In this document: positions 5,192-36,075 of the stretch, one piece after another
Position numbering within the stretch: the stretch's first letter is position 1
Layout of the letters: each line of letters begins with the position of its first letter
NCBI GenBank assembly: GCA_003024785.1
Contig: PUQB01000032.1
Location: forward strand, 248,001 to 312,000
DNA length: 64,000 nucleotides
Source: Selaginella tamariscina
Taxonomy: Eukaryota; Streptophyta; Lycopodiopsida; Selaginellales; Selaginellaceae
Direction: 5' to 3'
Notes under the pieces: generated by a model
Databases searched by the model: none
What the model saw: the letters and a program-made list of their open reading frames with translations, nothing else
Told to the model about the DNA's origin: nothing
Made by a program: the position numbers and the translations under genes

Positions 5192-5202
5192 CTTCGCGGC
5201 TC

Positions 5203-13618: not shown

Positions 13619-13860
13619 TTATAAACAGCATTAAGGGTGCCGTACTTTTCTATAAATGATAGCACCTAATTTAATGTCGCTTCTAAGGTGATCACTATCA
13701 AGAAAAGAGAAAATTATAAAATGAAGAAACCCTTACAAAAGAAAGAATTAAATTTAAATTTGAGTGAAAAATTAAAGCATTTTTAAATTTACATGTTAAA
13801 CTGATAATACTTATGTTAAAGTTTTAAATTTTCAAAAATAAAATAAATTTAAGATGAATT
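13619..13860 (-). other. Predicted transposase first exon, P1
   Basis: On the minus strand, 'ctgtttataa|GTAAGTATT' gives a good splice donor at 13618-13613. The flanking sequence is conserved in P2 (29570-29804) and P3 (58958-59215). No long conserved protein frame is shared by the three copies, so the exon is probably 5' untranslated. The 5' end is not defined. Confidence 0.45.
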
Positions 13861-14201
13861 GACCCAAATAACCAACTCTCTAACATATATACTTTCTAAT
13901 TCTAATGATTTTAATAAATTGCATTTAATGTATTTAACATTAGCAAGTGATTCAAGCTGTTTAATTTTACAAAATTTTAGTAATTATTCTACATTCTTAT
14001 TATTCTAGTATATATTATTAAGTATATATTATAAATATATATACTTATACAATAAATAAATGATATATTATTATGTATCATTTAAATATATTCATAGTGT
14101 GTATATTAATATTATTTCTTAATTATTTGAGTAATTATTTTACATTTGTTTATATTAATGGGCTATTCTTAATTATTTTCTTATTATTTCAAGAATATTC
14201 C
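13861..14201. other. AT-rich core of P1, left part
   Basis: AT-rich, homologous to P3 59216-59600 and to P2 (inverted). It stops at the solo LTR insertion site. No gene. Confidence 0.6.
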
Positions 14202-15945
14202 TGTCATAGTTTTTACTATGACTCCTCTTTACTTTGGACGTTGACTGTTGTTACCTACTGTACTATGTTGATAAGCCCTAGATGTAGTGAGAAATAGCCC
14301 CGCTTAGTGCACTTAGGTGTTTAGGGGTAATCCGGCCGGCTGTCCTTAGATATCTCGAGAAACTCTAAGTGAAGGTAGCACTTACCTTCTAAAAAACTCT
14401 TACCCTTGTTTTCCATGTCCCGGTTGGATTAATGGCTAGTTCCGGTGAGTTCGCATGTCGGATATGCTTAGAAATACCCCCAGGTTTGACAGGTTAGGGT
14501 TTAGGGGTCGATGGATAACTCACCAAGTATGTTCCCTTTGGGAATGAGATTTCAGTGCTAGCCCACTTATGTAAACAGGAAAACGGGGGGGGCCTCTGTC
14601 ACATAAATAAGGTAGTATATAGGAGTGAGGGTTCCTGGGTTCATGACTGAGCTCGTTACTCTTCTCCCGGTGCAAGCTCTAGCTTGTGTCGACAAGGCAC
14701 AACCCTCTGTTGTGCCGCCCTAACTTCCAGATGCCAGGGGTACGTCTCACCTTCGAGGTAACTTACCCTTAACGTTGGCGAATCCATGCCTGGGAGGTCT
14801 TGTTGGAATGCACGTTCCAAGAGGCAGAGGTTGAGGCTTGTCTCCAGCCTCCTCCTCCACGTCAAGCTAGGTGTAGCACTCACGGCCAAGCAAGGCAATC
14901 CGTGTCCTTGTCCAACTGTGAGCGTGGGATCTTGTTTGACATGTTCGTGTTACTTGGTTCCTGAGGGTTCATTGAGGGGTTCTAGAGTCGGCATTTAGGA
15001 GCCACGTTTGTGGCACTTGGTGCAACTCTTGAATCTAAGGGCTATGGCATGATAGCCCACATTGGGGAAGGCAGTGTCACATGGAGATGTGACACTAGGC
15101 TAAACGTCACATGGTACAAAGCCTGAGGCACGCCCTTTGGGGTTATGTCATGGGCTTGTCGCCAAGGGGTTGGATACTTTAGCAAACAGACATGCTTGTG
15201 CTTGCACTAGGGTGTTAAGCCTTGGGCATCCGCTCAAGGGAGGTTAGGTCTTAACTAGGTGTGCTTTGGCACACTTGGCTAGGGGAGTGTTCTCCTTAGA
15301 ATTCAAGGGTTGAACAACCTAAACATGCTAGCATGAGCCCTTTCGTGAGGCACTCGCAAGGTCATGTGCTTAGGGTTTTCCCAAACCTAGCCTTAGGGAG
15401 TTTGCTTAGTAAAACACTCGTGTCCTCACTAAGTACTAGCCCTAGGTCTAGGGTATAACTTGGCCACTCAAACCCTTAAGGGTTAGTCGTGGTTCAGGGT
15501 ACCCTTATTGCCCTAAAGGGGTTGTACTCCGGATGAGGGTGATTCCTCAAAGGGTAAGTGACGATGCCTTAGCTATGTCACGGGGGTATGTGTGGAACAC
15601 ACGTCTCCTTGATGGGGGTTAGGGCATGAGCTTGTCTAGGTCTTTTAGGGCAAGACCCTAAGTCAACTAGGGTTATCCCTCAAGGGTTTTGGGGGTAGAC
15701 ACTCTAGAGAGACTTAGGCTAAACCCTAAGTCAACTAGGGTTACCCCTCAAGGGTTCTGGGGGCAGACATTCTAGGGAGACTTAGGCTAAACCCTACCTG
15801 TCCACTTGGGCATTAGAGTCTAACCCTAGGGGTCGTTGGGGTTGTTCTAGGAAACTTAGCGTTGCTCACATAGGGTGATGACGCCAACTAGCCACCTAGC
15901 AGCCACGTGTTGCCACGTGTTGGCCCTTTGGGTTAAAACTCTGAC
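14202..15945 (+). mobile_element. Solo LTR, TGTCATAG family (1744 bp)
   Basis: Begins TGTCATAGTTTTTACTATGA and ends AAAACTCTGACA, so it has TG..CA ends with 5-bp terminal inverted repeats. It is flanked by an exact 5-bp duplication ATTCC (14197-14201 and 15946-15950). The sequence on either side rejoins as the AT core of element P (compare 59990-60010: aagaatattt/caatgttaaacc). No internal retrotransposon domain is present. The first 20 bases contain a hairpin-forming repeat, TCATAGT...ACTATGA. Confidence 0.9.
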
Positions 15946-17454
15946 AATTCCAATGTTAAACCTTATTATCAATATTAAATTAATATATATTAAAACTATA
16001 TATGACTATATATTAGATAAAATGTTAAATTATTATGTATAATTTAAAATATGTTTATAGTGTATATATTAATATTATTTTTACTTTAATTTAATGTTTC
16101 TTTGGCAAACATATATAACACAATAAAAAATTTACATATACATGTGCACACGCATTAAAGCACTTATAGAGACACATATGCACACACATATACATGCCGA
16201 TGAGTGGATCATAATATAAATAAATGTTCAAGGGTCTAGCATTTAACTTTGTATTTACGGTTTAGGGTTTAAATCCCAAACCAAACATTTATTGTTACAC
16301 ACACTCTACACTGGGGCTTACATATACATACAAGAAATATTTATATACTTCTACACGCACACAACACACCCCTTAAAAACATCCCACAATATGCATTAAA
16401 AGCACCTATAGAGACACATATGCACACATATACACACCGATGAGTGAATTACAATACAAATAATTAAATGTTTAGGGGTATAGGGTTTAGGGTTTAAACC
16501 CTAAACTAAGCATTTATCATTACACACACTTTACACTGGGACTTACATATACATACACAAAACATCTATATATTTACGTTTAATGTTTAGAGTAAATTTA
16601 TACTAAATAATTAGAAAAATCTGCATGGATTTAGTTTATATTAGTATAAAGATTTTATATTAATATATATATTATGTGCTACGATTACTTTCAAATGTGT
16701 TTTAATATCACTATGTCATTTTAAGTTAGAATAGAGTAAAATTCAAATATATACATACAATTTTCAAGTATGAGCAAATTATAATTTGCATTTTAAAAAA
16801 TAGAATTTTAAAAATAATTTAGAAATCACTAGAATGTTTGTGTATTTATGTTTAACTACTTGACTATCAACAATTCTTTATGCATGTTTTCTTATGTATT
16901 TTTTTATATGAATAATAGACTTTTTATACAGCTATTAAAATTTAATAATAAAATACTTGCATTGGTTTAAATCCTAAACCAAACTGGGAAATATGTTGCT
17001 TCTTTATCGAAAACTCATGTTAAATGCATGTATGATTTATATGTACTCAATCTATGTGTATGTAACACATTGAATTCACACAAGTAATATGTAACATATT
17101 CACACATGTAATATGTATGTATGTTTGTGTGTATACATGTGTGTATGTATATATGTGTACTAATGTATGTAATGTATGCAAAATTAATGTTTTAACACTC
17201 TCTCTCTGCATGATCCATAATATGTACTGACGTGACAATATTATGTACTATATATGTATGTCTATGTGTATATTATATGTGTGTATGTATGTATTGCTGT
17301 ATGTGAACATTTAACACTCTTATAGACACACATATGTTAAACCCTGGTACACCCACACACGCACACAAATTTAAGATTATGATAATATAATGAAAGAATA
17401 TTCATTTTGGGTTAATATATATTTTATTTCTTTTAGGGTTTAGGCATATTCTTA
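15946..17454. repeat. AT/CA-rich core of P1 with a tandem duplication and telomere-like motifs
   Basis: Homologous to P3 60000-61260. It also contains, only in this copy, a direct duplication of about 240 bp: 'cacttatagagacacatatgcacaca...gatgagtg' at about 16150-16385 and again at about 16390-16570, each with a GTTTAGGGTTTAAA telomere-like motif. Many TGTGTATG/CATACACA runs. No coding frame that looks real. Confidence 0.65.
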
Positions 17455-17614
17455 AGGTTTCAAGGCGGCAGAGAAAAAAGGCAGCGGAGGAGAAAGACGC
17501 AGCGACAGTGGAATGTGAGTGGCAGTGTAATAGATTAATAGATCCACTCTCACAAGGCATGGCGGTCCAAAAAGGTGCGGCAGTGCAGCAAGGTTTGAAG
17601 GCGCATTCACACAG
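17455..17614 (+). other. Predicted first exon of the ParB/MTase-like gene, P1 (long form)
   Basis: Preceded by TTTTAGGGTTTAGG, a telobox-like sequence, and ended by CACACAG|GTGAAATCT, a good splice donor conserved with P3 (61335|61336) and P2 (27518|27517). The P1 version is about 100 bases longer than in P2 and P3. Its extra GC-richer sequence (about 17475-17590) is absent from both. No ATG frame joins convincingly to exon 2, so it is likely 5' untranslated. Confidence 0.45.
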
Positions 17615-17634
17615 GTGAAATCTCTCTCTCATGT

Positions 17635-17890
17635 ATCACACGCACACTCTTGTATATACATACACATATACATATACATATACATATATATACATATATA
17701 TATGTGTGTGTATCTGTATAATTTAATTTTTTTATCTATCTCTCGCACACACACACACTCTTGTATATACATACACATATACATATACATATACATATAT
17801 ATATGTGTGTGTGTGTGTGTGTATCTGTATAACTTTATTTATTTATCTATCTCTGACACACACACGCACACATATAATTTAATTTATTTA
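17635..17890. repeat. CA/TA microsatellite cluster, P1
   Basis: Two tandem blocks of about 125 bp, each containing (CA)n, ACATATACATATACATATA and TATATGTGTGTG followed by 'atctgtataa.tttat'. The same composition fills the equivalent intron of P2 and P3. The apparent reading frames through it are low-complexity artefacts. Confidence 0.8.
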
Positions 17891-18044
17891 TCTCTTTTAG
17901 AAATTACTTTTAAATTATATCTCTCTCTTAGACACGCACTTTTGAATGTATATGTATTTGTCTTTTTTTTTATATATGTAATTTCTTTATCTCTCTATAG
18001 ACACAACTATATGTATATGTACATGTTTATTTCTATCCCATTCC

Positions 18045-18990
18045 CTGCCTAGGCGGCAGGATTAACCCTGCCACCCTTCCATGCCGGGTGGGTGGGATTA
18101 ATCCCGTCCACCACTCTTTAAAGAGAAAAGCGGATGGCGAGATTAATCCCGCCACCACATCCATGCCTAGTACGCAGGATTAACCCCGCCATCTCTTACA
18201 TGGCGGGTGGGCCTTGCCTAAAGGGTGGTGGGATAAAACCCGTCACCCATGCCCTACTTAAAGGGTGGCAAGATTAATCCTGCCACCCATACCATGCATG
18301 GCAGGAGGCCATCCCACACTCTTTAAGACATAAATGATGGTGGGATTAACGCCACCCCTTCCATGCTTGGTGGGTGGGATTAATCTCGCTCACAACTCTC
18401 TCAAATGGATAAGGGTGGTGGACGAGATTAATCACGCCACCAATGCCATGCATGGCGAGCGAGATTAATCCGCCCCATCTTTGTGACATAAAGGGTGGTG
18501 GGATTAAATCCGCTGACCCTTCCGTGCCTGGTGGGCGGGATTAATCCTGCCAATTGTTCGAGGAGGTGTGGAGGTGGTGGGAGGCATGGAAAGGGTGGTG
18601 CCACCAGACATGGAAAGGGATTAATCCCGCCACCCTTTATGTCTCAAAGAATGTGGGGCGGGATTAATCCCTCCCGCCATGCATGGCATCGTGGAAGGAT
18701 TAATCATGCCCACCACCCTTATCCATTTGAAAAAGTTATGAGCGGGATTAATCTCGCCCACAACTCCTTTACCTCTATCTCCAACACACACATGAATTTA
18801 TATGTGTATCTGTATATTATAATTTTTATATATATCTCTCTCACATACACAAATTATAGAGGCAAGGAAGTGGTGGAGGAATTAATCCCGCCACCCCTTC
18901 CCTACCTCCTAAAATGGTGGGCAAGATCAATCCCACCCACTTCTCTTTGAGACAGAGAAGGGTGGCAGGATTAATCCCGCCACCTTTTAT
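18045..18990. repeat. P1 palindrome array beta (decayed)
   Basis: About 20 decayed versions of the 18-bp palindrome, at roughly 35-60 bp spacing. Examples are GGCAGGATTAACCCTGCC at about 18055 and GGCGGGATTAATCCTGCC near 18535. It lies in the predicted first intron of the ParB/MTase-like gene, matching 25020-26475 (P2) and 62448-63895 (P3). Confidence 0.8.
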
Positions 18991-19084
18991 GTGAATGTAC
19001 ATGTGTATTAATATATATAAGTTCTTTATCTTCTTTTATTTACTTCTATAATTTTATCAAAATATTTTGAGTAAAAGCTAGTAA

Positions 19085-19175
19085 ATCATGTAAAATTGTC
19101 AAAAGCTCACATTTGTGGCGGTTCTATAAACAAATGATACTAGTTTTTTACACTATCACAAACTTGAGCTTTGGA
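19085..19175. repeat. Hairpin-forming inverted repeat upstream of exon 2, P1
   Basis: Arms GTCAAAAGCTCACATTTGTG and the imperfect complement CACAAACTTGAGCTTTGGAC, about 45 bp apart. The same structure is at 24833-24917 in P2 and its first bases end the window in P3. Both arms have changed in P1 but still largely pair. Confidence 0.6.
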
Positions 19176-19418
19176 CGCTTAATCCAGTCCATTTATCTCT
19201 AAGACAAAGAAGGGTATATGTGAATTTACTAGTGTATTAATATATATAAGCACATGTTTGTCTGTATATTATAATTCCTCGCCATTTAAATAGTCTGAGC
19301 ACTTCAGAGAAAAATATGTATAGACCTATAAAGTATTAATAGTATATTTGTATATTCGGGTTTATATAAGTGTGTGTGCGTTTTATATGAATTGTATTTA
19401 TAGTGTATTATTGTGTAG

Positions 19419-19873
19419 AAAGACAAATTGATCAAACAAAGAAATTCAGTCATTGGTATGGAGTCGTCATCAAATTCTGGGTAAGAATTAAAATAAAATT
19501 TGTTATACTCAGATATGTGTTTGAAGAACTAATTATTTTTATATTCAAATGTGGAATTGATGTAACATTGAAGATAAGAGGAGGCGACGAGATGAGCAAG
19601 GGGATTCTAGAATCAACTTGGCCATATTTCAAAATAACGAGAAGCACATTGGATTAACCATGGTTGCAGTCAAACTAACCTCTATCACATCGCTTGGACA
19701 AGCAAAATAATGGAAATAAATTCACTAGTCAAGCACCCGAGGGCAGGTTATGAATCGAGATTGGATAATGATCAAAATATATACCTTGTTCCATCCAATG
19801 TTATGTTCTCGGATCCGGAGGACGCCATATACGACAAGAATCTTGGGTGGTTCTATCGGCTTGTGAATTATAT
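19419..19873 (+). pseudogene. ParB/MTase-like gene, 5' coding part, P1
   Basis: Starts at an AG acceptor (19417-19418). A first short exon ends TTCTGG|GTAAGAATT, and a second begins ATGTGGAATTGATG. These match P2 exons at 24665-24726 and below 24603. Protein blocks include GIDVTLKIRGGDE and ILESTWPYFK, then the PSNVMFSDPE motif. The gene is cut at 19873 by the P2 insertion and resumes at 32383. Stops and indels are present. Confidence 0.78.
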
Positions 19874-19898
19874 GCACGTTGTAACTAAAGTGGGCATG
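19874..19898 (+). repeat. Terminal inverted repeat, P2 left end
   Basis: GCACG then TTGTAACTAAAGTGGGCATG. It pairs with the reverse complement of 32358-32382, differing at two positions. Confidence 0.82.
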
Positions 19899-20155
19899 AT
19901 ACGTGAAAATGGGAATATAAAATAAATTACTAATTAATACTTAAGTTTTAATTATTAATTAATCATTTAATTAATATGTAATTAAGCCTTAAATATTAAT
20001 TAATTAATTAATCCTTCAATAACCTTACTTAGTAAGGAATATTCCTAAAATATCTTAGAATATTCATATTATTCTAAAAATAGTTTACAATAATGAAGAA
20101 ATACTATCAAACATAATTACAAATGAAATCATTTTCTTATCAACATGTTAATTTT
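19899..20155. other. AT-rich subterminal region of P2 behind the HAD gene
   Basis: Rich in TTAATTAATTAA. Contains 'ttagaatattc' motifs like those in the other subterminal region. Probably holds the 3' end of the HAD transcript. No gene. Confidence 0.5.
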
Positions 20156-21316
20156 TTATAAATACTTTCTTCTATCATACAAAGAAATTTTCATTTTGTC
20201 TAAATCATCACTCTCCGGATTAATCAAATCATTTTGGTCAATATCTTGATGTTGTTGCCACCACTTAACACTCTCACGAATGCAATTGGGAGTTGCCATC
20301 CTTGTTAATACATAAGATGTGATAAGAGAAGGTCTGCATAAAGGCTCATCTAAAAACTGACGTTCCTTAAGAATAATATTATAAAGCGCCCGGTTGCTAT
20401 CCTTCATTTTATAAAATTCAATATCACGAGAAAGAAAAGCTTCAGGAAATGTATGATACGGTGGATACTGCTCACAAAAATTTTCGAGATTCTTCTTTCT
20501 GAGGCACGTATCCAAGTAGTTCACTAGCTCATCCATGATATCGGTATCAGAATATGGATCGAAAGTGATTGGATGAATACAAGCAATGTTTTGGTTGAGC
20601 ATAGCCTTCTGAGGAGAGTCGTCTACTACTAACATCTGTGCGTTCTTCATTATCCTTAAGCGACTGATCTCCCCATGAGTCCCAATTATTCTTTCATTCT
20701 TGAAGAAGTACGGCTTGCTTTCCTTTCTTATATTGTGAAATTCGAGAGGTTTATAACATATTCGCTGGTCAAAAATCCAATCTTTACGAATCACCTCTTC
20801 TGCAACACTACAATGTTTCTTAAGTAAATTCAACAGCGGTGTTAAGTTATGAATCTGCATGCATGACCAAATCCCCACAAGCGCACCCATCTCCTTAAGC
20901 TTTTGAAAGAGACGATCCAACCCTGGACGAAAAATAATATCATATCGAAATTTACCATGACAAGGAATGAAATCTCCTTGTTTGATTTCTTTTTCTATCC
21001 TGGGCCTTTGTCGATGAAGCAGAACACCATTGACATCCAACAACACAATATGGCCATGAGTAACATGAGATAGCGTTGCCTCTTGAATACTTTGCAAATC
21101 ACTTGTTTGCTCCCTTTCACATTTATCCGTTGCCACTATCTCGTTGCCTATCCCTTCATCATTTAATTGTACATCATCCTTACAAGATTCAGATATTGCA
21201 TGCGCTGAAGAAATTGATTTCGGAACTGAAGCCAATAAAAATGATGATGAAGTGGCCCCCATGGTAACGATGTTTTGAGCTGCATTATTATCCATTTCCT
21301 GCATGAACTCTGTCAT
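20156..21316 (-). CDS. FCP1/NIF-like HAD phosphatase domain protein (P2)
   Basis: An open frame of 386 codons from the ATG at 21316, which lies one base after a likely splice acceptor; an upstream exon is possible. The N-terminal 90 residues are Ser/Glu-rich and unstructured. The HAD fold follows: motif I DVNGVLLHR at about residue 93, then FRPGLDRLFQKLKEMGALVGIW, then the KSYFF-like region and motif IV LVVDDSPQKAMLN (20592-20638). This matches FCP1/NLI-interacting-factor phosphatases, which act on phosphoserine in proteins. The Asp two residues after the nucleophile is Asn (DVNG, not DxDG), as in several plant FCP1-like proteins from general knowledge, so catalysis is doubtful. It follows the ParB/MTase-like gene on the same strand about 280 bp away, and was probably captured from a host. 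Confidence 0.82.
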   Translation of the reverse strand: MTEFMQEMDNNAAQNIVTMGATSSSFLLASVPKSISSAHAISESCKDDVQLNDEGIGNEIVATDKCEREQTSDLQSIQEATLSHVTHGHIVLLDVNGVLLHRQRPRIEKEIKQGDFIPCHGKFRYDIIFRPGLDRLFQKLKEMGALVGIWSCMQIHNLTPLLNLLKKHCSVAEEVIRKDWIFDQRICYKPLEFHNIRKESKPYFFKNERIIGTHGEISRLRIMKNAQMLVVDDSPQKAMLNQNIACIHPITFDPYSDTDIMDELVNYLDTCLRKKNLENFCEQYPPYHTFPEAFLSRDIEFYKMKDSNRALYNIILKERQFLDEPLCRPSLITSYVLTRMATPNCIRESVKWWQQHQDIDQNDLINPESDDLDKMKISLYDRRKYL

Positions 21317-21596
21317 TCTGACATGTGGCACAAGAAATTGTCGCCAAACCCCTCTCTTACCTCATGCCAATGCTGAAAATCCATGTTCTCAATTATTTCA
21401 TTACATCTGCAAAATGATAATTAGCTGACCTTAAAATTATCAAGGTATATTATTTACCTTGTTAATGTGTGACCCATGTTTGAACTAAAAGCTTCATTAA
21501 TCCTTGAGAATTTATTTTCTGTACAAATATAAAAGAAATATACAAAAATGCCTTATGTTACACTCATTTACAACTATTCATCACTCTATCAATTCA

Positions 21597-24500
21597 TTAC
21601 AATTCTTCTTCGCTATTACCTTCTGAGTGAGGCGAAGAAGGTCTAAGCCGCTTGTGAGATGGTTCAAGATCTTCTGCATCTTCTATTGATGTTTCCATGG
21701 GTCCTGGAGTGTGCGAATGTTCTGTACTCCTCGAGATAACTTCCGGTCTAATATCTGATTGAAGTTCGTTCTCAGACTCCGAGATTGAACCAGATTCACC
21801 TTCAGAGCTATCGCACTTATCTGGAGGGAACTTTCTCAAATACGCCTTTATGGATTCGTTGGGGTACTCAGTTGAGACCCAATCTATCCACTTGTTCAGG
21901 TCCTCAACCATGGTCTTATCCTTTTCAACGGCAAACACACATGTATGCCGAAGGTAACACTCCTTCAAGACGGACCCCCTAGTGCAGTAGTCAAAAACCC
22001 ACGCATCACTGTGAGGACCCCTAATCAAGTTGACGATGCTCCGTGCCGCTTGACTTGTAATGTTTGGATAACGTACATTGCCGAATACGTCACTCACCTA
22101 TCGGTGTATCGGATGGAGGTTCAGGGCCGTTGGAGTGCAAACAGATGCCTGGCCAGTCATTTGGAAGCTTGAAATTGTTTGGCGCATTCCTAACAACCAA
22201 GTGAACAACGTATCAATGCACTTGGGATTAGCATCGTTCATATAAAATCCTGTCCAACGATGTCTATTCTTCTTGGCGAAGGCGAAGGCAAAAGTATCGG
22301 TGACATGAGCAAGAATCAAGAAATAAATACCTGAAAAAGTAGGTATCAGTGAAGAGCGCAAGCATGAATTCAATAATAAATACCTTCTATGTATATGCTT
22401 GCACGGCTAAGTTTCTCCACCAGATCCTCTAGTGCCCTATCTGTCGAAAGATTTTTTGACACCCGCCGATCCATCACGAACAATTGAAACGGTTTCCTAC
22501 AAGCAGTGATGTTACCCCATAAAGTCTCCGAATCTAACAACAAACATCTGTAGGGCTTGTCGTGATTCGTAGCATCCTCCTTTATAAGGTTCAATTCGGT
22601 TCTCCGCTGCTGAAGGACTGCCATAAGAGAAGGCGTCATCCCAATGTTCTCCTTTTTGGCGTTGGCGTGCAATAGATTCTTGCCTAGATCTTCCGATTGG
22701 TTCACCCATTCGACAAGCATATCATCGTTCGTCACATGCAAATATTTGCTGACCTCTTCATATGTTGAAGTCGAGGTCCAACCCAGTTTGTGGCAGTGTA
22801 TTCCCAACCACTCCTTGAAATGCCTGACCGTCTTCAACTCCATTGCCTTGAGATGAAAAGGAGAGGTTGGGCTGCTGTTATTAATTTGTAGTTTGCCATC
22901 GATCACCAAATCAGCCAAGACTTCCATCTCCTCCATCGTTGTTCCATTTAAAGGCTTCAACCATGTGAGCTTGAAATCGTTGTCTACATCCTTTGTAGAT
23001 TGAACAGACTTAGCCTTCGCGTCTTACTGGGTTTCTTTGCAGACTTTTCTGAGGGCTCCCCTTCACTTGTCTGCTTCTTCTTCAGTGTTCCTTTTGAAAA
23101 GGATTCCATAATCCCCAACCATTTGGCAAAGATCCTATCTTCGGGGCAAGAAATCAACATCATCAGAAAGGATGTTTCCTTCCCGCCCACCTGGGCAAAA
23201 TCAACTGCTGCAATTTCTTCAACTCTCTGAGGAAAAAAGACAGATTAATATACCGGCGAGATAAATCCCGCCCAAACAATTTGCTTACCCGGTATTCCGC
23301 AGATTGTGTATTCCCTGCGGTAGCTCTTTGTGGTCGCTGAAGAGATTCCCACACGGCTCGCGTGTGTTTAAACTTCTCCCATATTTTGCTGTTGTAGTGG
23401 TTGGTGTCGGCAGCGTCCCATTCCGCCGATAACTTATGGTACTGCTCGATTGTGAGATTCGGCTTAGCTAAAAACGCCGATCTTTTTGTCAGCTTCTCAC
23501 GGGTATGCTCGGAAAGTTTTGTTGCCATCGTTCCTTTGTTGTGTTCATCGAGAAGTCGTTGGGCTGCCGTTATTGTGTGCTGGCCACTAATGATGTAGTA
23601 CTTGATAGATTTTTATTCTCCGTCTGAATCTTCATGAGTTGTTCTGGTGTTGTGATCCAGACTTTGTCAGCGCCCTTCCTTCTTTCATAGTATGGACACA
23701 AAACAGCATTATGTGGAACGGTATAAGAATTGTCGTCCTTCATCTTCTCCATGAGCTCAGCTACACGTTCCTGGTTGAGTGGCCTGTAATTGAAGTTTGG
23801 GTTGACGCTGCAATATTTAACCCTACAAGGATAAATCTTATCATCCAACATCATTTCCTTGTGACTTATTGCAGCATGAGATGCCACAGGTGCAGCTGAC
23901 AAAACGATTGATGATTTTCTTTTGCGATCCGAATCAACATGTGTGATCCCCGACTGCAGCTGTTCTAGTGTTCTCGGCACACTCTTCCAGCTCCCGAAGC
24001 TTCCTAAGCAAATTGAACGTGATCTGTAGAGAACCTGAGACCGAGCCACCTCTCAATCTCCCTTATGATGTCGCTGTGTTCTTCTTCAATGTGAAGAGGG
24101 AAGATTGCTCCACTTGCTGATTTTCTGTATTGTGAAGCAATATCTCCTGACAATACACCTACTCGATGAGTCTGAAGATCTTCGAAGTAGACATCCAGAT
24201 GGATCCCCTCCATAGATGGGCTTTCGTTGAGTTGAAGAAGAACTCCAAGGTCAACATCATTAGTGAACACGTGAACGTCATTATCCACAAGTCGACAAAA
24301 CCACCCGAATTAATGTTGTAACTGACGACCTCTGGATCCGAGAACGTGACATTGGATGGAACAAGGCATATCTGTCGAGCATCGTCCAATCTGGGTTCGC
24401 AGCCTGCTTTCGGGTGCTTGACTAGCGAATCTACTTTCCATTGTTTTGCTTGTCCATGAGATGTGACAGAGGTTAATTTGACAGCAACCATGGTTGCTCC

Positions 24501-24726
24501 AATGCGCTTCCCATTTATCTTAAAATATGGCCAAGTTGATTCCAGAATCCCCCTGCCCATCTCTTCTCCTGCTCTTGTCTTTAATGTCACCTCAATTCCA
24601 CATCTGAATACAAAAATGATTAGTTCAAGTATCCGAGTATAACAGATTTTATTTTAATTCTTACCCAGAATTTGACGACGACTCCATACTAATGACTCGA
24701 TCTCCTTGTTTGATCAAATCGTCCTT
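21597..24726 (-). pseudogene. ParB-like domain / DNA methyltransferase-like protein (P2), multi-exon, frame-disrupted
   Basis: Exon 2 starts after an acceptor at 24727-24728 (K-D-D-L-I-K-Q-G-D-R-V). Introns are visible at 24604-24664, about 23227-23289 and about 22325-22375. Domain order: an N-terminal module with LESTWPYFKINGKRIG and PSNVTFSDPE; a ParB/sulfiredoxin-like domain with RPLNQERVAELMEKM (about 23727-23785) and YYIISGQHTITAAQ (23567-23606), the GQH-type ParB signature; a linker; LNLIKEDAT...CLLLDSETLWGN (about 22511-22600), where a class-beta methyltransferase would have its DPPW motif; and a C-terminal VFDYC..GSVLKECYL...VEKD block (about 21918-22001), resembling the SAM-binding motif I. 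Canonical DPPW and FxGxG are both absent. A 1-base deletion near 23020 is private to this copy; two other frame changes are shared with P1. Confidence 0.62.
23254..23273. repeat. Single palindrome inside a later intron of the ParB/MTase-like gene
   Basis: GGCGAGATAAATCCCGCC, a near-perfect copy of the array palindrome, sits in the short intron between the QSAEYR and VEEIAAV exons. The P1 copy keeps a decayed version (about 33300-33317), so it is ancestral to the family. Confidence 0.7.
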
Positions 24727-24832
24727 CTGCAAAATAATACACTATAATACAAATTATATAAAAACGCACACACACTTGTATAAACCCGAATATACAAAAA
24801 TAATACACAGAGAGAAGTAGACGTAATTAACT

Positions 24833-24917
24833 GTCCGAAGCTCACATTTGTGTTAGTGCAAAAGAAAGATAACATTTCGTTTTAGAACCACCACAAATGT
24901 GAGCTCTGGACAGTTTT
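24833..24917. repeat. Hairpin-forming inverted repeat upstream of exon 2, P2
   Basis: Read on the minus strand, CTGTCCAGAGCTCACATTTG and, about 40 bases on, CAAATGTGAGCTTCGGACAG: nearly perfect arms of about 22-24 bp. It lies in the intron about 110 bp before the exon-2 acceptor. It is conserved in P1 and begins at the last bases of the window in P3. Confidence 0.75.
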
Positions 24918-25019
24918 ACATAGATTCCTAGCTTTTACTCGAAATATTATGATAAGATGATAAAAGTAAATAAAATGAGATATGCAACTTATATATACTA
25001 ATACACATATATATTCACA

Positions 25020-26475
25020 TGGAAGGTGCGGCGGGATTAATCTCGCCACCCCTTCAATGCCTCCTGAAAGAGTGGGCGGGATTAATCTCGCCACCTTTCT
25101 GGAGGCCTTGAACGGGAGTGCGGAATTAATCTTGCCACCCTTCTCGGTCTCAGAGAGAACTGGGCAGGATTTATTTCTCACACCCCTTCAGTGACTCCAG
25201 AAAGGAGGCGGGATTAATCTCGCCCACCATGTAAGGGATGGTTAAATGAATTTTCCCCACCCTTCCCAATTCTCTCCATTGGTATGTTGAAAACCTTCTA
25301 CGTCTCAGACAGAAACGTTTGGGATTGGTCCGACTCACCAATGGAGAAAAAAGGAAGGGTGGCGGGATTCATTCCTCCAACAGGCATTGAAGACTCGGCG
25401 GGATTAATCCCGCCGCCCAGGGCCTTCACTCGGTCCCTATGCGGCGGGATTAATCCCGCCGGACGCCAATTCCCTGCGCGGAATCGGGCGGGATTAATCC
25501 CGCCGCCTAGGCACTTCAGGCAGGCCAATGGCGGCGGGATAAATCCCGCCCGATTCCGCGCAGGGATTGGCGTCCGGCGGGATTAATCCCGCCTCCCAGG
25601 CCCTTCACTCGGGCCTTAGTCGGCGGGATTAATCCCGCCGAACGCCAATGCCCTGTGCGAAATCTTGCGGGATTAATCCCGCCGCCTAGGCCCTTCAGGC
25701 AGGCCAATGGCGGCGGGATAAATCCCGCCCGATTCCGCGCAGGGCATGCGTACGCGGCGGGATTAATCCCGCCCACCATGTAAGGGATGGTGAAATTAAT
25801 CCCACCACCCTTCTCAGTTCCCTCCATTGGTATTTTGTAAACCTTCTCCGTCTCAGACAGAGTTAGTCGGGATTGATTCAACATACCAATGGAGGAAAAA
25901 AAGGGTGGCGGGATTAATCCGCCACCGGGTAATGAAGGTTCGGAGAGACTAATCCCGCCGCCCTCTCGTAAATCATGCGCTCACACATATATATTGGCTG
26001 CGGCATTTTGAACAGGGATGGGTGGGGGCGGGATTAATCCCGCCGCTTATATCCTGCGGAAGTGCCTGAGCGGCGGGATTAATCCCGCCGCCCTCCGCGA
26101 AGGGCATGAGCGTGGGGCGGATTAATCCCGCCGTTCATGTCCTGCGTGAATTCCCTGGGCGGCGGGATTAATCCCGCGCCTTACGCGCAGGACATTTAGC
26201 CTTCCATGCAGGATCTTTCATGCAGGCTCTTGTTAGCCTCATGAGCGGCGGGATTAATCCGCCGCCAGGCCTCACGCAGGCCATGCGGCGGATTAATCCC
26301 GTCGCTCTTCGCGGTCCTAGAGCGGCGGGATTAATCCCGCCCGCCCCATAGCCTGCGTGAGGGCCTGGCGGCGGGATTAATCCCGCCGCCATGGCCCCAA
26401 CCATATAGCGGCGGGATTAATCCCCCGCCGAGGCCATAAACCTATAGCGGCGGGATTAATCCCGCGCTCGAGGGC
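25020..26475. repeat. P2 palindrome array beta
   Basis: Roughly 30 exact or one-to-two-base variants of GGCGGGATTAATCCCGCC, spaced mostly 38-60 bp. A common variant is GGGATAAATCCC. Spacers are GC-rich and recurrent (CCTGCGCGGAAT, GGCCTTCACTCGG). A larger duplication is visible: the 'ccatgtaagggatgg...ctccattggta...accaatggag' block occurs at about 25225-25360 and 25780-25915, and each contains a CCATTGGTA/TACCAATGG hairpin. Read in frame, both strands give GGINPA/AGLIPP peptide repeats, a by-product of the palindrome. Confidence 0.92.
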
Positions 26476-26479
26476 TTAG

Positions 26480-26941
26480 CGTGTGTGCGAAAGAAAAAAT
26501 TAATAAATAAAAAAATTATACATATAAAACACACACATATATATATGTGTATATATATATATATGTATGTATGTATGTATAGGAGTGTACGTGTGTGTGC
26601 AATAGATAGATAAATAAATAAAATTATACAGTACTGGTACAATATATGTGTGTACATAGGTATATATGTGTGTATATGTATATCGTGTGTATGCGTGTGA
26701 GCGAAACAAATAAAATCATACAGATAAACAAACACACACACACACATATATATACACAGGAGTGTGCGTGTGTGTGCAAAAAATAAAACTAATAAATAAA
26801 TAAATTATACAGATAAACACATACATATATATGTGTGTATATAGATATATAACCCATAGAAAAGAGAGAGAGTCTGTGAATATATAAGCATATATATAAA
26901 CTAGTGTTGTATACTATTTGTTAATATGCATTGATTATATA

Positions 26942-26980
<39 letters not shown>

Positions 26981-27468
26981 GTGTGTGTGTGTGTGTGTAA
27001 AGCAGTGTGCGTGTGTGTGGGAGAGATAAATCAATAAAAAAATTATATAGATACTGGTACACATAATATATGTATGTATATATTATATAGGTATATATAT
27101 ATGTGTATATGTATATTGTGTGTATGCGTGTGTGAGCGAAACAAATAAAATCATACAGATAAACAAACACACACACACATATATATACACAGGAGTGTGC
27201 GTGTGTGTGCGAGAGATAAAACTAATAAATAAATAAAATTATACAGAAAACACACACATATATATATGTGTGTATATAGATATATAACCCATATGAATAT
27301 AAGCATATATATAAACTAGTGTTGTATACTATTTGTTAATATGCATTGATTTATATATATTATATATATATATATATGTAAAGCAGTGTGCGTGTGTTGT
27401 GGGAGAGATAGATCATAAAAACAAATTTATAGATACTGGTTATACGCACACTCCTATACATATATACA

Positions 27469-27509
<41 letters not shown>

Positions 27510-27512
27510 TCT
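26480..27512. repeat. CA/TG/TA microsatellite tract, P2
   Basis: Tandem blocks of several hundred bases made of GTGTGTG, TATATATA and 'aataaaattatacagata' segments, repeated about four times. It lies between the second palindrome array and the predicted first exon. Low-complexity frames here are not genes. Confidence 0.88.
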
Positions 27513-27517
27513 CACTT

Positions 27518-27600
27518 GTGTGCATAGCCGCCGCCGCCGATTTCACAGCCGCCGCCTCTTGAAACCCTAAGAATATACCTAAACCCTAAAGGAATTAAAT
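27518..27600 (-). other. Predicted first exon of the ParB/MTase-like gene, P2
   Basis: On the minus strand: telobox-like TTTAGGGTTTAGG, then a GGCGGCGGC-rich segment, ending at a donor |GTGAGATCT (27517-27512). The exon end is CACAA here and CACAG in P3. Likely 5' untranslated. Confidence 0.45.
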
Positions 27601-28620
27601 ATATATATTAACCCTAATAGAATATTCCTTCTGAGAATATACTTAAACCCTAAAAAGAATAAAATATAGATTCGCCCTAAACGAATATTCTTTCATTATA
27701 TTATTAGCGCGTGCGTGTGTGTGGTGTATCACATACACCCCAAAAATATAAATCATGCAGGGATTTAACATGTGTGTGTCCATGAGAGTGTTAAAGTTTC
27801 ATGTGATCAATACATACATACACATTGCATATATTAATACACATAATATATACATACACACGTGTATACACACAGACATACATACATATTACATGGGTTT
27901 AGGGTTTAGGGTTTAGGGTTTTTGGATTTAGGATGGATCATGCATGGTGTGTATGTATGAGAGAAGAGAGAGTGTTGAAAAATTATTTTGTACACATTGC
28001 ATATATTAGTACACATATATACTTACACATATTATACACAGATATACATACATAGTATATGAGAGAAGAGAGACAGTACTATTATGGATCATGCATGGTG
28101 TGTATTATACACACAGACATACATATATATTAGTACATAATATTAGAGAGACCGAGTACATATTATAGATCATGCATGGTGTGTATGTATAAGAGAAGAT
28201 AGAAAGTACACATATATACATACACATGTGTATACACACAGACATACATACATATTACATGAGTAAATTCATTGTGTTACATATTAGGGTTTAGGGTTTA
28301 GGATGGATCATGCATGGTGTGAAGAGAGAATGTTGAAAAATTATTTTTGTACACACATGTATACACAGGGTTTAGGGTTTAGGGTTTAGGGTTTGCTCCC
28401 AACAAGCTTAATATAAATATTACACATGTAAATTCAATGTGTTACATACACACAGATTGAGTACATATATCATACATGCTTTGAACATGATGTTTTCAAT
28501 AAAGAAGCAAACATATTCTTCAGTTTGGTTTAGGATTGTGCATGTGTGTGCATATGTGTTTTTGTAAGTTCTTGTAATGTGTGTGTAAATTTATGATTGT
28601 GTTTATATATGTGTGCAAAA
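27601..28620. repeat. Core region of P2 with telomere-like blocks and ATGCATGATCC repeats
   Basis: Interstitial plant-type telomere repeats: (TTTAGGG) about 3-4 units at 27897-27920, 2 at about 28286-28302, and about 4 at 28367-28396. Between them a module with GGATCATGCATGGTGTG recurs at about 27936, 28085, 28168 and 28304, each next to 'agagaagagagagt'. The mirror set is in P3 at 60370-60960. No gene. Confidence 0.8.
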
Positions 28621-29569
28621 CAAACATCGAATAATTAAGAAAATAATATTAATAAACACACTATGAACATATTTTAAATTATACATAATAATATATGATT
28701 TTATCTAATATATAGCCATATATAGTTTTAATAAATATATTAATTTAATATTGAAAAAGGTTTAACATTGAAATATTCTTGAAATAATAAGAAATTAATT
28801 GAGAAAATCCCATTAATATATACAAATGTAAATTAAGTACTCAAATAATTAACTAAATTAATTATCATAATCATGTTTAATATTGGAATATTCTTGGAAT
28901 AATAAGAAAATAATAAAGAATATCCCATTAATATAAAGAAGATTAATTACTCAAGTAATTAAGGAAATGATATTAATATACACACTATGAACATATTTTA
29001 AATTATACATAATAATACATCATTTTATCTAATATATAGTCATATAGTTTTAATAATATATATTAATTTAATATTGATAATAAGGTTTAACACATGAATA
29101 TTCTTGAAATAATAACAAATTAATTGAGAAAATCCCATTAATATATACAATGTAGAATAATTACTGCAATAATTAAGAACAAGACTAATTTAATTATGAT
29201 ATCAGGTTTTAATATTAGATATTCTTTAAATATTAATAAAATAATAAAGAATATTCCATTGATACTAGGAAATGAAACTAAATACTCGAGTAATTAAGAA
29301 AATAATAATAATAAACAGACTATGAATATATTTTAAATGATACATAATAATATATCAATTTATTTATTGTATAAGTATATATTTATATAATATATATATA
29401 CATATACTTGAATACTAAGAATGTAGAATATAGTCTAAAATTCGTAATATTAAACAGCTTGAATCACTTGAATAACATTAAATGCAATTTTAAAATACTC
29501 ATTGGAACTGGAGAGTATATATGTCAGAGTGTCGGATATTTGTGTCACTCATCTTAAATTTTATTTTCT
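28621..29569. repeat. AT-rich tandem repeats in the P2 core
   Basis: About 155-bp and 310-bp direct repeats with 'atattgataataaggtttaacat', 'gaaataataagaaattaattgagaaaatcccattaatata' and 'tatagccatatatagttttaat'. Homologous and inverted relative to 59500-60130. No gene. Confidence 0.7.
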
Positions 29570-29804
29570 GTTCTTTTTTAAAAAATTTGAATTTCTGACA
29601 TATGTATTGTCGGTCTGACATGTAAATTTGAAAAATGCATTTAATTTCCCACTCAAATTCAATCTGGTTCTTTCTCCGGGTTCTTATTTCTGTATTTTTT
29701 ACTCTTTAGATCTTCTTTTTCTTCATAGTGATTATCTCAGGAGCGAGATTAAATTGGGTGCTATTATTTATAAGAAAGCACGGCGCCTTCAGTGCTGTTT
29801 ACAA
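29570..29804 (+). other. Predicted first exon of the transposase, P2
   Basis: Ends '...gtgctgtttacaa|GTAAGTATT' at 29804|29805, a consensus donor conserved in all three copies. The downstream intron holds palindrome array alpha. A short frame (29628-29864) runs through the donor, but the predicted peptide is not preserved between copies. Confidence 0.45.
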
Positions 29805-29959
29805 GTAAGTATTATAAACAAATTTAAATACTATAAAGATTCACTCTCTTACATTCTCTCTTAAATTTACCAATTTAGGTTTAGGAATGCATTAGGATTA
29901 TAATTATTCCGTTAGGGATTTATCTCGTTTAAATATCCTTTTAACTTAATATTTTAGGT

Positions 29960-30452
29960 TTAACCGGGCGGCGGGATTAATCCGGCCATTTCTTTTTCGC
30001 CTCTCTTCGAAGATGGCGGGATTAATCCCGCCACCACTCTCGAGCAATGCTTCTCCGCCACTGAAAAAGAGTGGCGGGATTAATCCCGCCAATAACCTTC
30101 TCAACTGATGAAGAGTTACCAGAATTTATTAGAAAGAGTTGTCGGCGGGATTAATCCCACTAACCATTTTAGGAGGCAGGGAAGGGGTGGCGGATTAATC
30201 TCGCCACCACATCCCTGTTTTAAGGATTTGGGGACAGGATTTATCCCGAGACTCTTTGAAATCATAGTTTTGGAGAGAGTTATGTGCGGGTTTAATCCCG
30301 CCACCCATTTCCCCGTCGTAAGAATTGTGGGCGGGATTAATCCCGCCTTGGGACTCCCTCCGATAAGAAAGAGCCGGCGGGATTTAATCCCGCCGCCTCT
30401 TCCTCCTCGGGGGAGTCCGGCGGGATTAATCCCGCCGACTCTCTCCGACGAG
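29960..30452. repeat. P2 palindrome array alpha (truncated by a deletion)
   Basis: About ten exact or near copies of the 18-bp palindrome. It stops at GACGAGGAAG, where the sequence jumps into the middle of the transposase exon. In P3 the same spot continues GGAGTCC with more palindromes. Confidence 0.9.
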
Positions 30453-31872
30453 GAAGAAACAACACCTTCAATCTTTACATAATGCTCTCATGAACACGTC
30501 TGCACTTGAGGCTACTTGGGAATATGAGAGGCATTGTTCAACAGCTGCACAAAAAACAGATGGCCCTGTTGGAGAGTTCTGGTTCAGTGGAGGGATCTAG
30601 CTCAAATAGTGTACATGTGTCCTCAACATCAAATAAGCTTCCTCGTCATTTGTTTTTACAGATGGATAATTGTGCAGGCGAGAACAAAAATAGGTAAATC
30701 ATTTTACTTAAGGGTTTCTCAAGCTCATTACTTACTTTTATTTTCTAGATATGTGCCAGCATACTTGTCAATGCTTGTTGCCAAAGGTGTGTTTGAAACA
30801 ATCATGCTCAGTTTCCTTATGGTTGGTCACACTCATGAAGATATTGATGCGTTCTTCAGTAAGGTCTCCAACTCTACAAAAAGGACAAGTGCACTTACTT
30901 TACCGCATGTGATGAATCTTTTTTGAAAATTGCATCTCCAAAAAAAGTTGTGCTTTGCTTGTGACTGAGGTGCCAGACTTCAAAAAATTTCTCAAGGAGT
31001 ATATAAAAGAAGGGAGTGATTCTTTAGTTGGTCACCTTGTTGCCGCTACAATTCTTTTTCTCCATACAAGATGTATACCTATTATGCAGTACAAGTTACG
31101 GCCATCAGAGCAGGAGTGGTTACGAAAGAGGGCTTAATGCTCTTTCAAAAGTGGAGAGAGATGGAAAGCCACTTCTCCAGAAGGACAACCAGACCCTATT
31201 CCATTGAGTGCCCAGCTCAAGGAAACAAGAGGTTATTATTGATGGCATCAAAAAATATTGGCATGGGTTCAAAAATCGATGCCAAAGGAATTCTGATAAG
31301 GGCAACTGGTTATTCAGAACTATATAAGCATGTGGTCGACTATTGGGAGACTGTTGTTCGAGAGTTGGAAGGGCCTACTGTCACAAGTACAGAATTGCAA
31401 CACCCTTTCTGGCCTAAAACAAGGTGGCGAAGAGGAGATTGAAATGACATCACTGAGCACAGACGCGACATAAGCCAGTAGTGATGTGGAAGTGCAAACC
31501 CCACACTTTGTTGGATAAAGGAACCAAAAACCTAAAGCATACTTTGATTGTTGCCAAGATCTTCAAAAACTAATGATGGTTCTCATTACTCCAGATGCGT
31601 CATATAATCAGCCTATTTGGATGGGTCAAATTATCGACACACCTGAAGTAATCACAAAAAATAGTATTGTTAAGGTTGCATGGTTCAAACCACAAAAAAG
31701 GCGACACGAGAAGGAGAGCGAAAGATATAATGGATGCCTAGAGAAAAAATGGTCTCCCAATCAAAAAGACCCAGCATGTTTTATAAATGTTAAATCCATT
31801 CGATATGGGTGGATGTCAGAAGCATTGATAAAATCACGATTACAAAACTGCAAGGGAATGTATGTTTTCTGA
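30453..31872 (+). pseudogene. Transposase-like gene, 3' half only (P2)
   Basis: Collinear with P3 56205-54792. It carries the second acidic motif MDNCAGENKNR (30661-30693), an intron 30694-30748 (GTAAATC...TTCTAG), then the YVPAYLSMLVAKGVF and GHTHEDIDAFF motifs (third acidic site, about 30822-30855). It continues to the C-terminal stretch VKVAWFKPQKRRHEK. The first half, including the first acidic site, is deleted, and further indels break the rest. The join has the 4-base microhomology GAAG. Confidence 0.85.
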
Positions 31873-32357
31873 AGCTTAAAGCAATTACAAAATTATAAAA
31901 TATCATATATTTAATATTCATAATTATTATAAACTCTTTAATAATAGTACCAAATTGTATACTTAACTATATAAATTTAAAAAATGATATGGAAGATTGA
32001 CTATATTATTATAGGATTTTATATATATATTTTACTATTACAAATTTTTAATTAATAATGTTCTATTTAAATATTAATATTTTAATAACAACATCAATAT
32101 TTATATAATGTACCTCTTATGCTCTTCCTTAATTGTTATATTAGGCAATATATTATATAATTTAATACCTTCTACTTTTATAATGTTATTAATTTTTGTT
32201 CAATGAATGCTATAATTTATTAAAGGGTAGAATACAAATAGAATATTCTAAAGAATATTCTATTTTCAAACATATATTCTAAAGAATATTCCTTTAATAT
32301 TAGAAAATGCTAATTAAATAGCTAAAATTGCTAATTATTAGGAAATGGGACTATAGC
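31873..32357. other. AT-rich subterminal region of P2 behind the transposase
   Basis: AT-rich; inverted homologue of 54337-54791. Contains paired 'aaagaatattc' blocks before the terminal repeat. No gene. Confidence 0.6.
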
Positions 32358-32382
32358 CATGCCCATTTTAGTTACAACTTGC
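32358..32382 (-). repeat. Terminal inverted repeat, P2 right end
   Basis: Reverse complement reads GCAAG then TTGTAACTAAAATGGGCATG, matching 19874-19898. Confidence 0.82.
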
Positions 32383-35000
32383 ATTTATGATGTTCACGTG
32401 TTCACTAATGATGTCGACTGTGGAGTTCTTTTTTCAACTAGACAAAAGCCCATATATGGAGGGGATCCGATTAGATGTTTACTTCGAGGATCTCAATACT
32501 CATTGAGTAGGTGTATTCGCATTAGATATTGCTTCACAATATAGAACATCCACAAGTGAAGCAATCGTTCCTCTTCTTATTAAAGAAGAACACAACGACA
32601 TCATTAGGGAGATTGAGAAGGTGGCTGGATCCTAGGTTCTTTACAGATCATGTTGAAATTGCTTAGGAATATATATAAACTGAAAGAGTGTGCCAAAAAC
32701 ATTAGAATAATTACAGTCGAGGCTCACACATGTTGATTTTAACCGTAGAAGAAAATCATTTGTCATTTTGTCAGCTGCACTAGTGGCATCCCATGATGTA
32801 ATAAGTGATCGGATTTATGAGTGTAGTGTTAAGTATTTGCAGCATTAACCCTAACTTCAATTACATGCCACTCAATCGGGAACATGTATTTGAAGAAGAT
32901 GAAGGACAACAATTCTTACATTGTTCCACATAATGTTGTTTTGTGCCCATACTATGAAAGAAAGAAAAGCATTGAGATAGTATGGGTGATAACACCAAAA
33001 CAAATCACAAAGATCCAGACGGAGAATAAAAATCAATTAAGTATTACATTATTAGTAGCCAACACATGATAACGGCAGCCCAACGACTTCTTGATAAACA
33101 CAATAAGGGAAAGATGGCAACAAAGCTTTCTGAGAATTCTCGTGAGAAGCTAACAAAAATATCGGCGTTTTTAGCTAAGCCTAATATTACAACTGAGCAG
33201 TATCATAAGCTATTGGCTGAATGGGAAACTCTTGGGCGACCACAAAGAGCTATTGCAGGGAGAAAACAAAGTGCAGAATACTATGTAAGTAAATTGTTTT
33301 AGCGGGATTTATCTTTGCTAGATATTATCTGTCCCTTTTTTAATCTGCAAAGAGCCGAAGAAAATTGCAATAATTGATTTTGTCCAAGTGGGCAGGAAGG
33401 AAACATTTTTACCCCTAGGACAAGTCTTTGCCAAATGGGTGGGGATTATTGAATTATTCATAAAAGAAACACTGAAGAAGAAACAAACAAGTGAAGAGGC
33501 TCTCGAAAAAGTCTGCAAAGAAACCCAGTAAGACGCTAAAGCCTAAGTCTGTTCAAGTTGCAAAGAATGTAAACAACGACTTCAAGCTCACATGGTTGAA
33601 GTCTTTGAATGGAACAACGATGGAGGAGATGGATGTCCTAGCTGATTTGGTGGCTGATGACAAACTACTTAAATTAACAACAGTAGCCCCACCTCTCCTT
33701 TTCATCTCAAGGCATTGGAGCTGAAGACAATTAAGCACTTCAGTAATACACTATCATAAATTGGGTTGGACCTCAGCTTCAACATATGAAGAGGTCAGTA
33801 AATATCTACATGTGACAAAACGATGATATGCTTGTCCAATGGGTGAACCAATCGAAAGATTTAGGCAAATTCTATTGCATGCCAACACTAGAAATGAGAA
33901 TATTGCGATGATGCCTTCTCTTATGGCAGTCTTCAGTAGTGGAGAACAGAGTTGAACCTTATAAAAGGAGGATGTTACGAATCATGACAAGCCCTACAGA
34001 TGTTTATTGTTGGATTCGGAAACTTTATGGGGTAACATCACTGCCTGCAGAAAATCGTTTTAAATGTTTATGATGGATCAGTGGGTGTCAAAAAATCCTT
34101 CTTTAGATAAGGCACAAGAGGATTTGGAGAGAAGCTTAGCCGTGCAAACATGTACAAAGAAGGTATTTTTTGCACACTTAGCTAATACCTACGTTTTCAA
34201 GTATTTATTTCTTGATTTTTACTTATGTCACCGATACCTTCGCCTTTGTCTTTGCCAAGAAGAATAAACATCGTTGGACTAGATTTTATGAATGATGATG
34301 ATTCCAGGTGTATTGATACGGTTGTTCACTTGTTTGTTAAGAATGTGCCAAACAATTTTAAACTTCCAAATGATTGGCCAAGCATCTGTTTTCACTCTAA
34401 TGGGCCTAAACCTCCATCCAATACACTGATAACTGAGAGGAACGTATTTGATAATGTATGTTATCCAAACATTATAAGTCAGGCTGCACAAAGCATTATC
34501 AACTTGATCAAGGGTCCTCACAGTGATGCATGGGTTTTTTACTACTGCATTAGGGGATCCATCTTGAAGGAGTGTTACCTTTGAGATACATGTGTGTTTG
34601 TCGTTGAAAAGGATAAGACCATGGTCGAGGACTTGAATAAGTGGATAGAGAGGTTCTCAACTAACTACCCTAACAAACCCATACAGGAGTATTTGGGAAA
34701 GTTCTTTCTCGAGAAGTGCAATAACTTTGAGGAGAAATTTAGTTTAATGTCCTAGGTCTGAGAATGATCTTGAACTAAATATTACACTGAAAGTTATTTC
34801 AAGGAGTACAGAACATTCACTTACTCCATTGACTATGGAAACATCAACATAAGAAATAGAAGATTTTAAACAATCTTCCAAGCAATTAAAACCTTCTTCG
34901 CCTCACTCAGAAGGTAACAACAAAGAAGAATTGATAATGTGTTGATAAAATGACGAATAGTTGTAAATGAATGTAACATAAAGGCATTTTTGCATATTTT
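32383..35000 (+). pseudogene. ParB/MTase-like gene, remainder of the P1 copy
   Basis: Resumes exactly where 19873 breaks off (...GTTCACGTGTTCACTAATGATGT). It parallels P2 24290-21597: the ParB-like block with YYIISSQHMITAAQ at about 33037-33080; LTWLKSLNGTTMEEMDVLADLV; CLLLDSETLWGNIT (about 34000-34045); and VCYPNIISQAAQSIINLIKGPHSDAWVF..C..GSILKECYL (about 34455-34580). Many stops and shifts. It keeps the frame near 33530 where P2 has lost a base, and shares two other frame changes with P2. Confidence 0.72.
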
Positions 35001-35198
35001 GTTTATATTTGTACAGAAAAAATTCTCAAGGATTAAAGAAGCTTTTAGTTTAAACATGGGTCACACAGTAACAAGGTAAATAATACCTTGATAATTATAA
35101 GGCCAGTTAACTATCATTTTATAATGTAATGAAACAGTTGAGAACATGGATTTTTAACATTGCCATGAGGTAAGAGAGGGGTTTGGCAAAAATTTCTT

Positions 35199-36075
35199 GT
35201 GCCACATGTCAAAATGACAGAGTTCATGCAAGAAATGGATAATAATGCAACTCAAAACATTCTTACCATGGGGACCACTTCAATTTTTTCATCACCATTT
35301 CTATTACCTTCAGTTCGTAAATCACTTTTTTCAGCGCCTGCAATATTTGAATCTTGTAAGGATGATGTACAAGTAAATGATAAAGGGATAGGTAACAATA
35401 TAGTGTCAACAGATAAATGTGAAAGGGACCAAACAAGTGAGTTGTAAAGCATTTGGGAGGCAACGCTACCCCTTTACCCACGGTCATATTGTATTGTTGG
35501 ATATCAATGGTGTTCTGCTTCATTGACAAAGGCCTGAGGATAGAAAAAAAGAAATCAAACAAGGAGATTTCATTCCTTATCATGGTAAATTTCGATATGA
35601 TATCATTTTTCGTCCGGGGTTAGACCATCTCTTTCAAAAGCTTAAGGAGGTGGGTGCACTTGTAAGGATCTGGTTATATATATAGTTTCACAACTAAAAA
35701 TTATAGTGTTGCAAAAGAGGTGATTCGTAAAGATTGGATTTTTAACCAGCGAATATGTATAAACCTCTTGAATTTTAGGATGTAAAAAAGGAAAACAAGT
35801 CATACTTCTTCAAGAATGAAAGATTAATTAGAAAATCAATCAGTTAAGGATAATGAAGAACACACATAACTTAGTGGTAGACAACTCTCCTTAAAAGGCT
35901 ATGTTTAACCAAAAATACTTGTATCCATTCAATCACTTTCGACTCGTATTCTGATATTAATATCATATATAAGCTAGTGAATTATTTAGATACGTGTCTC
36001 AGAAATCTTGAAAACTTTTGTGAGCAACATTCATTATATAAAACATATCCTAACACTTTTCTTTCTAATGTACTT
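35199..36075 (+). pseudogene. FCP1/NIF-like HAD gene, P1 copy, truncated
   Basis: Aligns with the P2 HAD gene from its start (MTEFMQEMDNN) through LLDINGVLLH, where a CGA-to-TGA change makes a stop, FRPGLDHLFQKLKE, and the DDSP region (decayed, about 35875-35910). Homology fades near 36075, before the C-terminal quarter. Motif I is DING, so the Asn in place of the second Asp is ancestral to both copies. Confidence 0.78.

Follow-up and report, generated by a model that had tools for sequence, protein, structure and literature searches.

CACTA/EnSpm elements, which have CACTA ends and a 3-base-pair (bp) target duplication, carry repeat arrays and reach a high copy number, and hAT elements encode a hAT transposase and generate duplications of 8 bp (5–7 bp in some groups). 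Sola elements, credited to Bao and others 2009, are said to combine a DDD transposase with 4-bp duplications. Giant KDZ, EnSpm and Sola-1 elements are described from the brown alga Ectocarpus in a published account, among them Sola1-1_Ec32, an element of 21.5 kilobases (kb) with a 1,104-residue gene opposite its transposase that encodes ParB-like and DNA-methyltransferase domains and whose product has similar counterparts reported in transposons of green and red algae; Sola-1 is represented there by 1,989 copies, two of them intact, making up 0.17% of the genome (PMC12477816). KDZ (Kyakuja-Dileera-Zisupton) elements are large and equipped with accessory genes, among them, in fungi, a DNA-modification gene of the TET/JBP kind (PMC12730594, PMC12477816), with Zisupton duplications of 8 bp (PMC12730594). 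Here we describe an element from a stretch of 64,000 nucleotides of Selaginella tamariscina (GCA_003024785.1, contig PUQB01000032.1, positions 248,001–312,000 of the forward strand), referred to as the window. An annotation made from its letters alone, the original prediction, had proposed a transposon with a defined copy of 12.5 kb. Our analysis lends strong support to a large DNA transposon family whose ends are defined. The element is very probably of the cut-and-paste type, and its ends occupy roughly two thousand places in the genome.

The ends are defined by a 20-base motif which, at up to three mismatches, is found at three sites in the window, 19879 (+), 32358 (−) and 9289 (+), and in none of 100 shuffled sequences, in line with the inverted ends originally placed near 19.87 and 32.38 kb. 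In the seven copies compared, the terminal inverted repeat has 27 bp, ATGCAHGTTGTAACTAAARTGGGCATG, and begins with AT, its two halves matching at 25 of 27 positions (24 in one copy) compared to 2 of 18 beyond. In light of this length and start, the window copy extends from 19872 to 32384, so that the inverted repeats of the original prediction are retained but its repeat length of 25 bp and its limits at 19874 and 32382 are not.

The target site duplication was investigated in 24 pairs of ends, consisting of 22 pairs with their ends 9–17 kb apart, one 22.2-kb pair and the window copy. If the repeat is set to start at GCA, as proposed originally, exact duplications of 3 to 8 bp are found in 0 of 24 pairs, whereas a start two bases further outward, at AT, yields an exact 4-bp duplication in 10 of 24 compared to 1.3% of mismatched pairs. 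Three extra pairs add one exact case (ACCA, at copy C84) to give a total of 11 of 27. Age, recombination or mispairing may account for the 16 pairs left; at copy C80, for example, two left ends are found 249 bp apart. Empty sites, a check suggested with the original prediction, were identified at four loci, where the joined flanks with a single target align gap-free across the junction to unoccupied relatives. The respective targets read ATTA, AAGA, GTAG and, for the window copy, TTAT, which in its relatives is TAAT.

An exact 8-bp duplication is absent from all 24 pairs, whichever of four offsets is applied, and the presumed 8-bp duplication AATTATAT/ATTTATGA of the window copy turned out to be the 4-bp pair TTAT/TTAT. 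This observation bears on a possible relationship to KDZ/Zisupton or hAT elements, the groups for which duplications of 8 bp are usual. An 8-bp reading loosely fits the window copy at 5 of 8 bases, giant KDZ elements are on record in the Ectocarpus account (PMC12477816), and large size and accessory genes are shared with the KDZ group. With the 8-bp duplication of Zisupton missing in every pair, and neither KDZ nor hAT matches found by Pfam, we regard such a relationship as highly improbable. KDZ/Zisupton membership was rejected on the duplication, and hAT membership on its length of 4 bp and the lack of a hAT match in Pfam.

Across the genome (300.7 Mb in 1,391 contigs), the end motif is found at 4,937 sites with up to two mismatches (2,511 forward and 2,426 reverse), compared to none for a reversed control. 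In a genome search with the ends, as suggested with the original prediction, extended patterns, at up to three mismatches in 35 bases, locate 1,959 left-type and 1,939 right-type ends, again with no match to the reversed patterns, and both types are thus nearly equally frequent. Among 100 sites at the head of the list, a non-random set, there are 29 adjacent convergent pairs, 22 of which are spaced 9–17 kb, implying that long copies are common, which differs from the two intact Sola-1 copies in the Ectocarpus account. If each of the approximately 1,950 ends per type belonged to a full copy, the family would occupy up to about 9% of 300 Mb, which is an upper estimate.

For comparison of copies, 10 genome loci were assembled from adjoining stretches, and the six with an exact end pair were retained, whereas C225, C361, C79 and C14 were left out. 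The six copies measure 13,848–15,064 bp compared to 12,513 bp of the window copy, and the complete element is about 14–15 kb long. The predicted transposon stands, but its 12.5-kb copy is not the full unit, since it lacks positions 10729–12824 of C84. Over 4.9 kb on the left and 3.8 kb on the right, C84, C113 and C80 are 99.8–99.97% identical to each other with gaps uncounted, which points to recent activity, and the remaining three longer copies are 95.6–99.7% identical to them; having been selected for long open frames, C84, C113 and C80 are a non-random sample. All seven copies share one layout, leading from the left end via a NIF-like gene (−), the gene P1 (−), a palindrome array, an AT-rich spacer and a second palindrome array to a DUF7869 gene (+) and the right end. 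In the window copy, the features are:

19868–19871, no strand: left 4-bp target site duplication, TTAT (duplication test and empty-site comparison)
19872–19898, plus: left 27-bp terminal inverted repeat (25/27 identical to the right end, then 2/18)
20156–21361, minus: NIF/FCP1-like HAD phosphatase gene, open frame of 401 residues from stop to stop (PF03031, E 4.2e-12; in 7/7 copies)
21597–24720, minus: gene P1, presumably of several exons, with frames broken in this copy (part of the fixed layout; profile searches negative)
25030–26465, no strand: palindrome array upstream of P1, GGCGGGATTAATCCCGCC, about 45-bp spacing (palindrome search)
26470–29960, no strand: low-complexity, AT-rich spacer containing two short runs of TTTAGGG
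29968–30457, no strand: palindrome array upstream of the DUF7869 gene (palindrome search)
30453–31872, plus: 3' part of the DUF7869 gene (presumably for the transposase), left by an internal deletion on its 5' side (PF25273, E 3.9e-19; comparison with C84)
32358–32384, minus: right 27-bp terminal inverted repeat (motif search and end comparison)
32385–32388, no strand: right 4-bp target site duplication, TTAT (duplication test and empty-site comparison)

A comparison of the whole window to itself reveals three copies of the element, the 12.5-kb copy (A) and two others (B and C). Copy A is a deletion derivative, in which 41% of the DUF7869 protein remains as a result of the internal deletion, and it is nested in the older, inverted copy B with its insertion point in the P1 gene of the latter. 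The split of a P1 gene by insertion, as claimed originally, was confirmed in this way and agrees with the empty-site comparison. Copies B and C comprise:

9282–19871, minus: first part of the older copy B, the insertion target, with one intact end at 9282 (window self-comparison)
32389–36066, minus: second part of copy B, whose similarity ends near 36066 with no end found (window self-comparison)
54312–64000, minus: copy C, with a damaged end at 54312, continuing beyond the window to about 68579 in window numbering (sequence comparison)
54792–57951, minus: DUF7869 gene of copy C, with two exons and a small frameshift in exon 1 (Pfam and frame analysis)

The gene with the motif GHTHEDID, noted in the original prediction as transposase-like, matches the Pfam family DUF7869 (PF25273) with a score above the curated cut-off. 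Of 4,249 candidates for this profile in the genome, 150 were scored, yielding 300 matches; 14 control genomes yielded no match. In C84, C113 and C80, two frames joined over a putative 54-bp GT-AG intron form spliced open frames of 1,035–1,074 codons, and the other four of seven copies have a broken frame or an unmatched intron. An initial protein search identified two homologues and a profile search 20 proteins, including P0001, which is uninterrupted across the joint where the element has its putative intron. Six acidic residues, D529, D532, D725, E764, D765 and D767 in P0001 numbering, do not vary among the 10 homologues that make up alignment A4 and reside in the motifs IIHDKMD (D), LQLDN (D) and GHTHEDID (E and D), which are nearly identical in the element (LIHDKMD, LQMDN and GHTHEDID). 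In a weak structure model, these motifs adjoin predicted strands, an arrangement resembling that of RNase H cores, although with D529 and GHTHEDID at pLDDT values below 50.

The described properties, a large conserved gene in a mobile element with invariant acidic motifs, suggest that the DUF7869 protein is likely the transposase. Alternatively, it could be cargo, and a separate transposase encoded at an unlinked site could act on the ends in trans. Searches with the weak structure model gave no significant match, and the function assigned to DUF7869 is itself deduced, both of which would leave room for such a scenario; conversely, a spliced frame that is open throughout in the three near-identical copies and the invariance of the acidic residues in 10 homologues argue against it and make it improbable. 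As a transposase of the DDD/E type, the protein of about 1,020 residues would bind the ends, excise the element and insert it at a 4-bp staggered cut, and deleted copies such as the one in the window might be mobilised in trans by intact ones.

With respect to its superfamily, we consider the element most likely a giant transposon of the Sola type, an assignment by analogy that we hold to be probable. It is based on the 4-bp duplication, a hallmark of Sola and found here in 10 of 24 pairs (1.3% in mismatched ones) and at four empty sites, and on a Sola1 element in print whose transposase faces a ParB-methyltransferase gene on the other strand. Sola1-1_Ec32 and the present element are both giant DNA transposons with an accessory gene, here P1, on the strand opposite the transposase, and the copy numbers are of the same order (1,989 Sola-1 copies there). 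The element in Selaginella differs by its length of 14–15 kb, an additional NIF-like phosphatase gene and 35–48 palindromes per copy, and searches for ParB and methyltransferase domains in its P1 were negative.

The DUF7869 elements might instead constitute a separate superfamily that has acquired 4-bp duplications and a P1-type gene independently, which we regard as a distinctly less probable, though sizeable, alternative to the Sola placement. In its favour, no Pfam transposase family besides DUF7869 scores above cut-off in the element protein and its homologues (homologue P0009 has a sub-threshold match to Transposase_23, E 0.023), DUF7869 is unnamed in the literature searched, and the ends ATGCA...TGCAT appear unlike those of Sola. 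The 4-bp duplication, together with a Sola1 element in print that carries its ParB-methyltransferase gene on the opposite strand, makes an independent match less likely. Besides the sub-threshold Transposase_23 match of P0009, repeat arrays and high copy number are reminiscent of CACTA/EnSpm, but the ends (ATGCA rather than CACTA) and a duplication of 4 instead of 3 bp differ, and membership in this group was rejected on both grounds. Literature searches returned no match for DUF7869 or for DUF8039, which we take to be the name of PF26133, a domain precomputed for some DUF7869 homologues, and among the matches listed by further searches no element is recognisable as the present one. Within the literature searched, the family is thus undescribed, as the original prediction had suspected, whereas its kind probably is already known, given the giant Sola1 element of Ectocarpus with its ParB-methyltransferase gene (PMC12477816).

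The remaining genes of the element are encoded on the minus strand. The predicted FCP1-like HAD gene is present in the form of the NIF-like phosphatase. A ParB/methyltransferase label had been attached to P1, in which the stretches GQHTITAAQRLL and DYCTRGSVLKECYLRHTCVFAVEKD resemble by eye what we presume to be a ParB domain and the S-adenosylmethionine (SAM) motif of a methyltransferase, respectively; this label found no support in Pfam, NCBIfam, PDB-sequence and whole-genome ParB searches. Breaks in the P1 frame are small and differ by copy, for example in C113, C80 and C65, as if caused by long-read assembly errors or decay. The palindrome GGCGGGATTAATCCCGCC occurs 35–48 times per copy at up to four mismatches, mostly about 45 bp apart, with a mean of 0 in shuffled sequences, and nearly all sites are confined to two blocks directly upstream of the divergent DUF7869 and P1 genes. 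The arrays noted originally in the window copy contain 37 such sites, compared to a mean of 0 in three shuffles. Telomere-like TTTAGGG runs were detected in the AT-rich spacer of six of seven measured copies, in the window at 27895–28394 and 60373–60490.

Elsewhere in the window, a Ty3/Gypsy-type long terminal repeat retrotransposon is located at 1281–6836 on the minus strand, with gag (PF03732) and RNase H (PF17917) domains and repeats at 1.29–1.69 and 6.36–6.73 kb of 95–97% identity; in another part of the genome, a copy of the giant transposon (L058) lies inside a relative of this terminal repeat. A GC-rich tandem array of 159-bp and 93-bp units (48365–49013) is found between transposon copies. 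A gene-like stretch at 49204–53109 encodes a DNA-binding domain of the Myb/SANT trihelix type (PF13837, E 3.3e-16), followed by frames, the two tested of which have no Pfam match, and is perhaps another DNA transposon.

Collectively, the study assigns a probable job, that of a transposase, to the unnamed domain DUF7869, together with exact ends and the length of the target duplication, and it documents a DNA transposon of very large size that is abundant and has recent copies. The most interesting question raised concerns a possible cooperation of P1 with the palindrome arrays. The palindromes upstream of both genes could be binding sites, possibly for P1, which in turn may mark or protect the DNA of the element. 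We tentatively envisage a process of self-recognition, with P1 binding the 35–48 palindromes in front of both genes and modifying the DNA of the element that encodes it, a mark that would favour expression or counter silencing, an idea that we consider rather unlikely at present. If true, it would account for the rise to about 2,000 copies of a transposon that is 15 kb long and carries three genes, and P1 and its palindrome arrays would offer a natural system for testing the self-marking of transposons.
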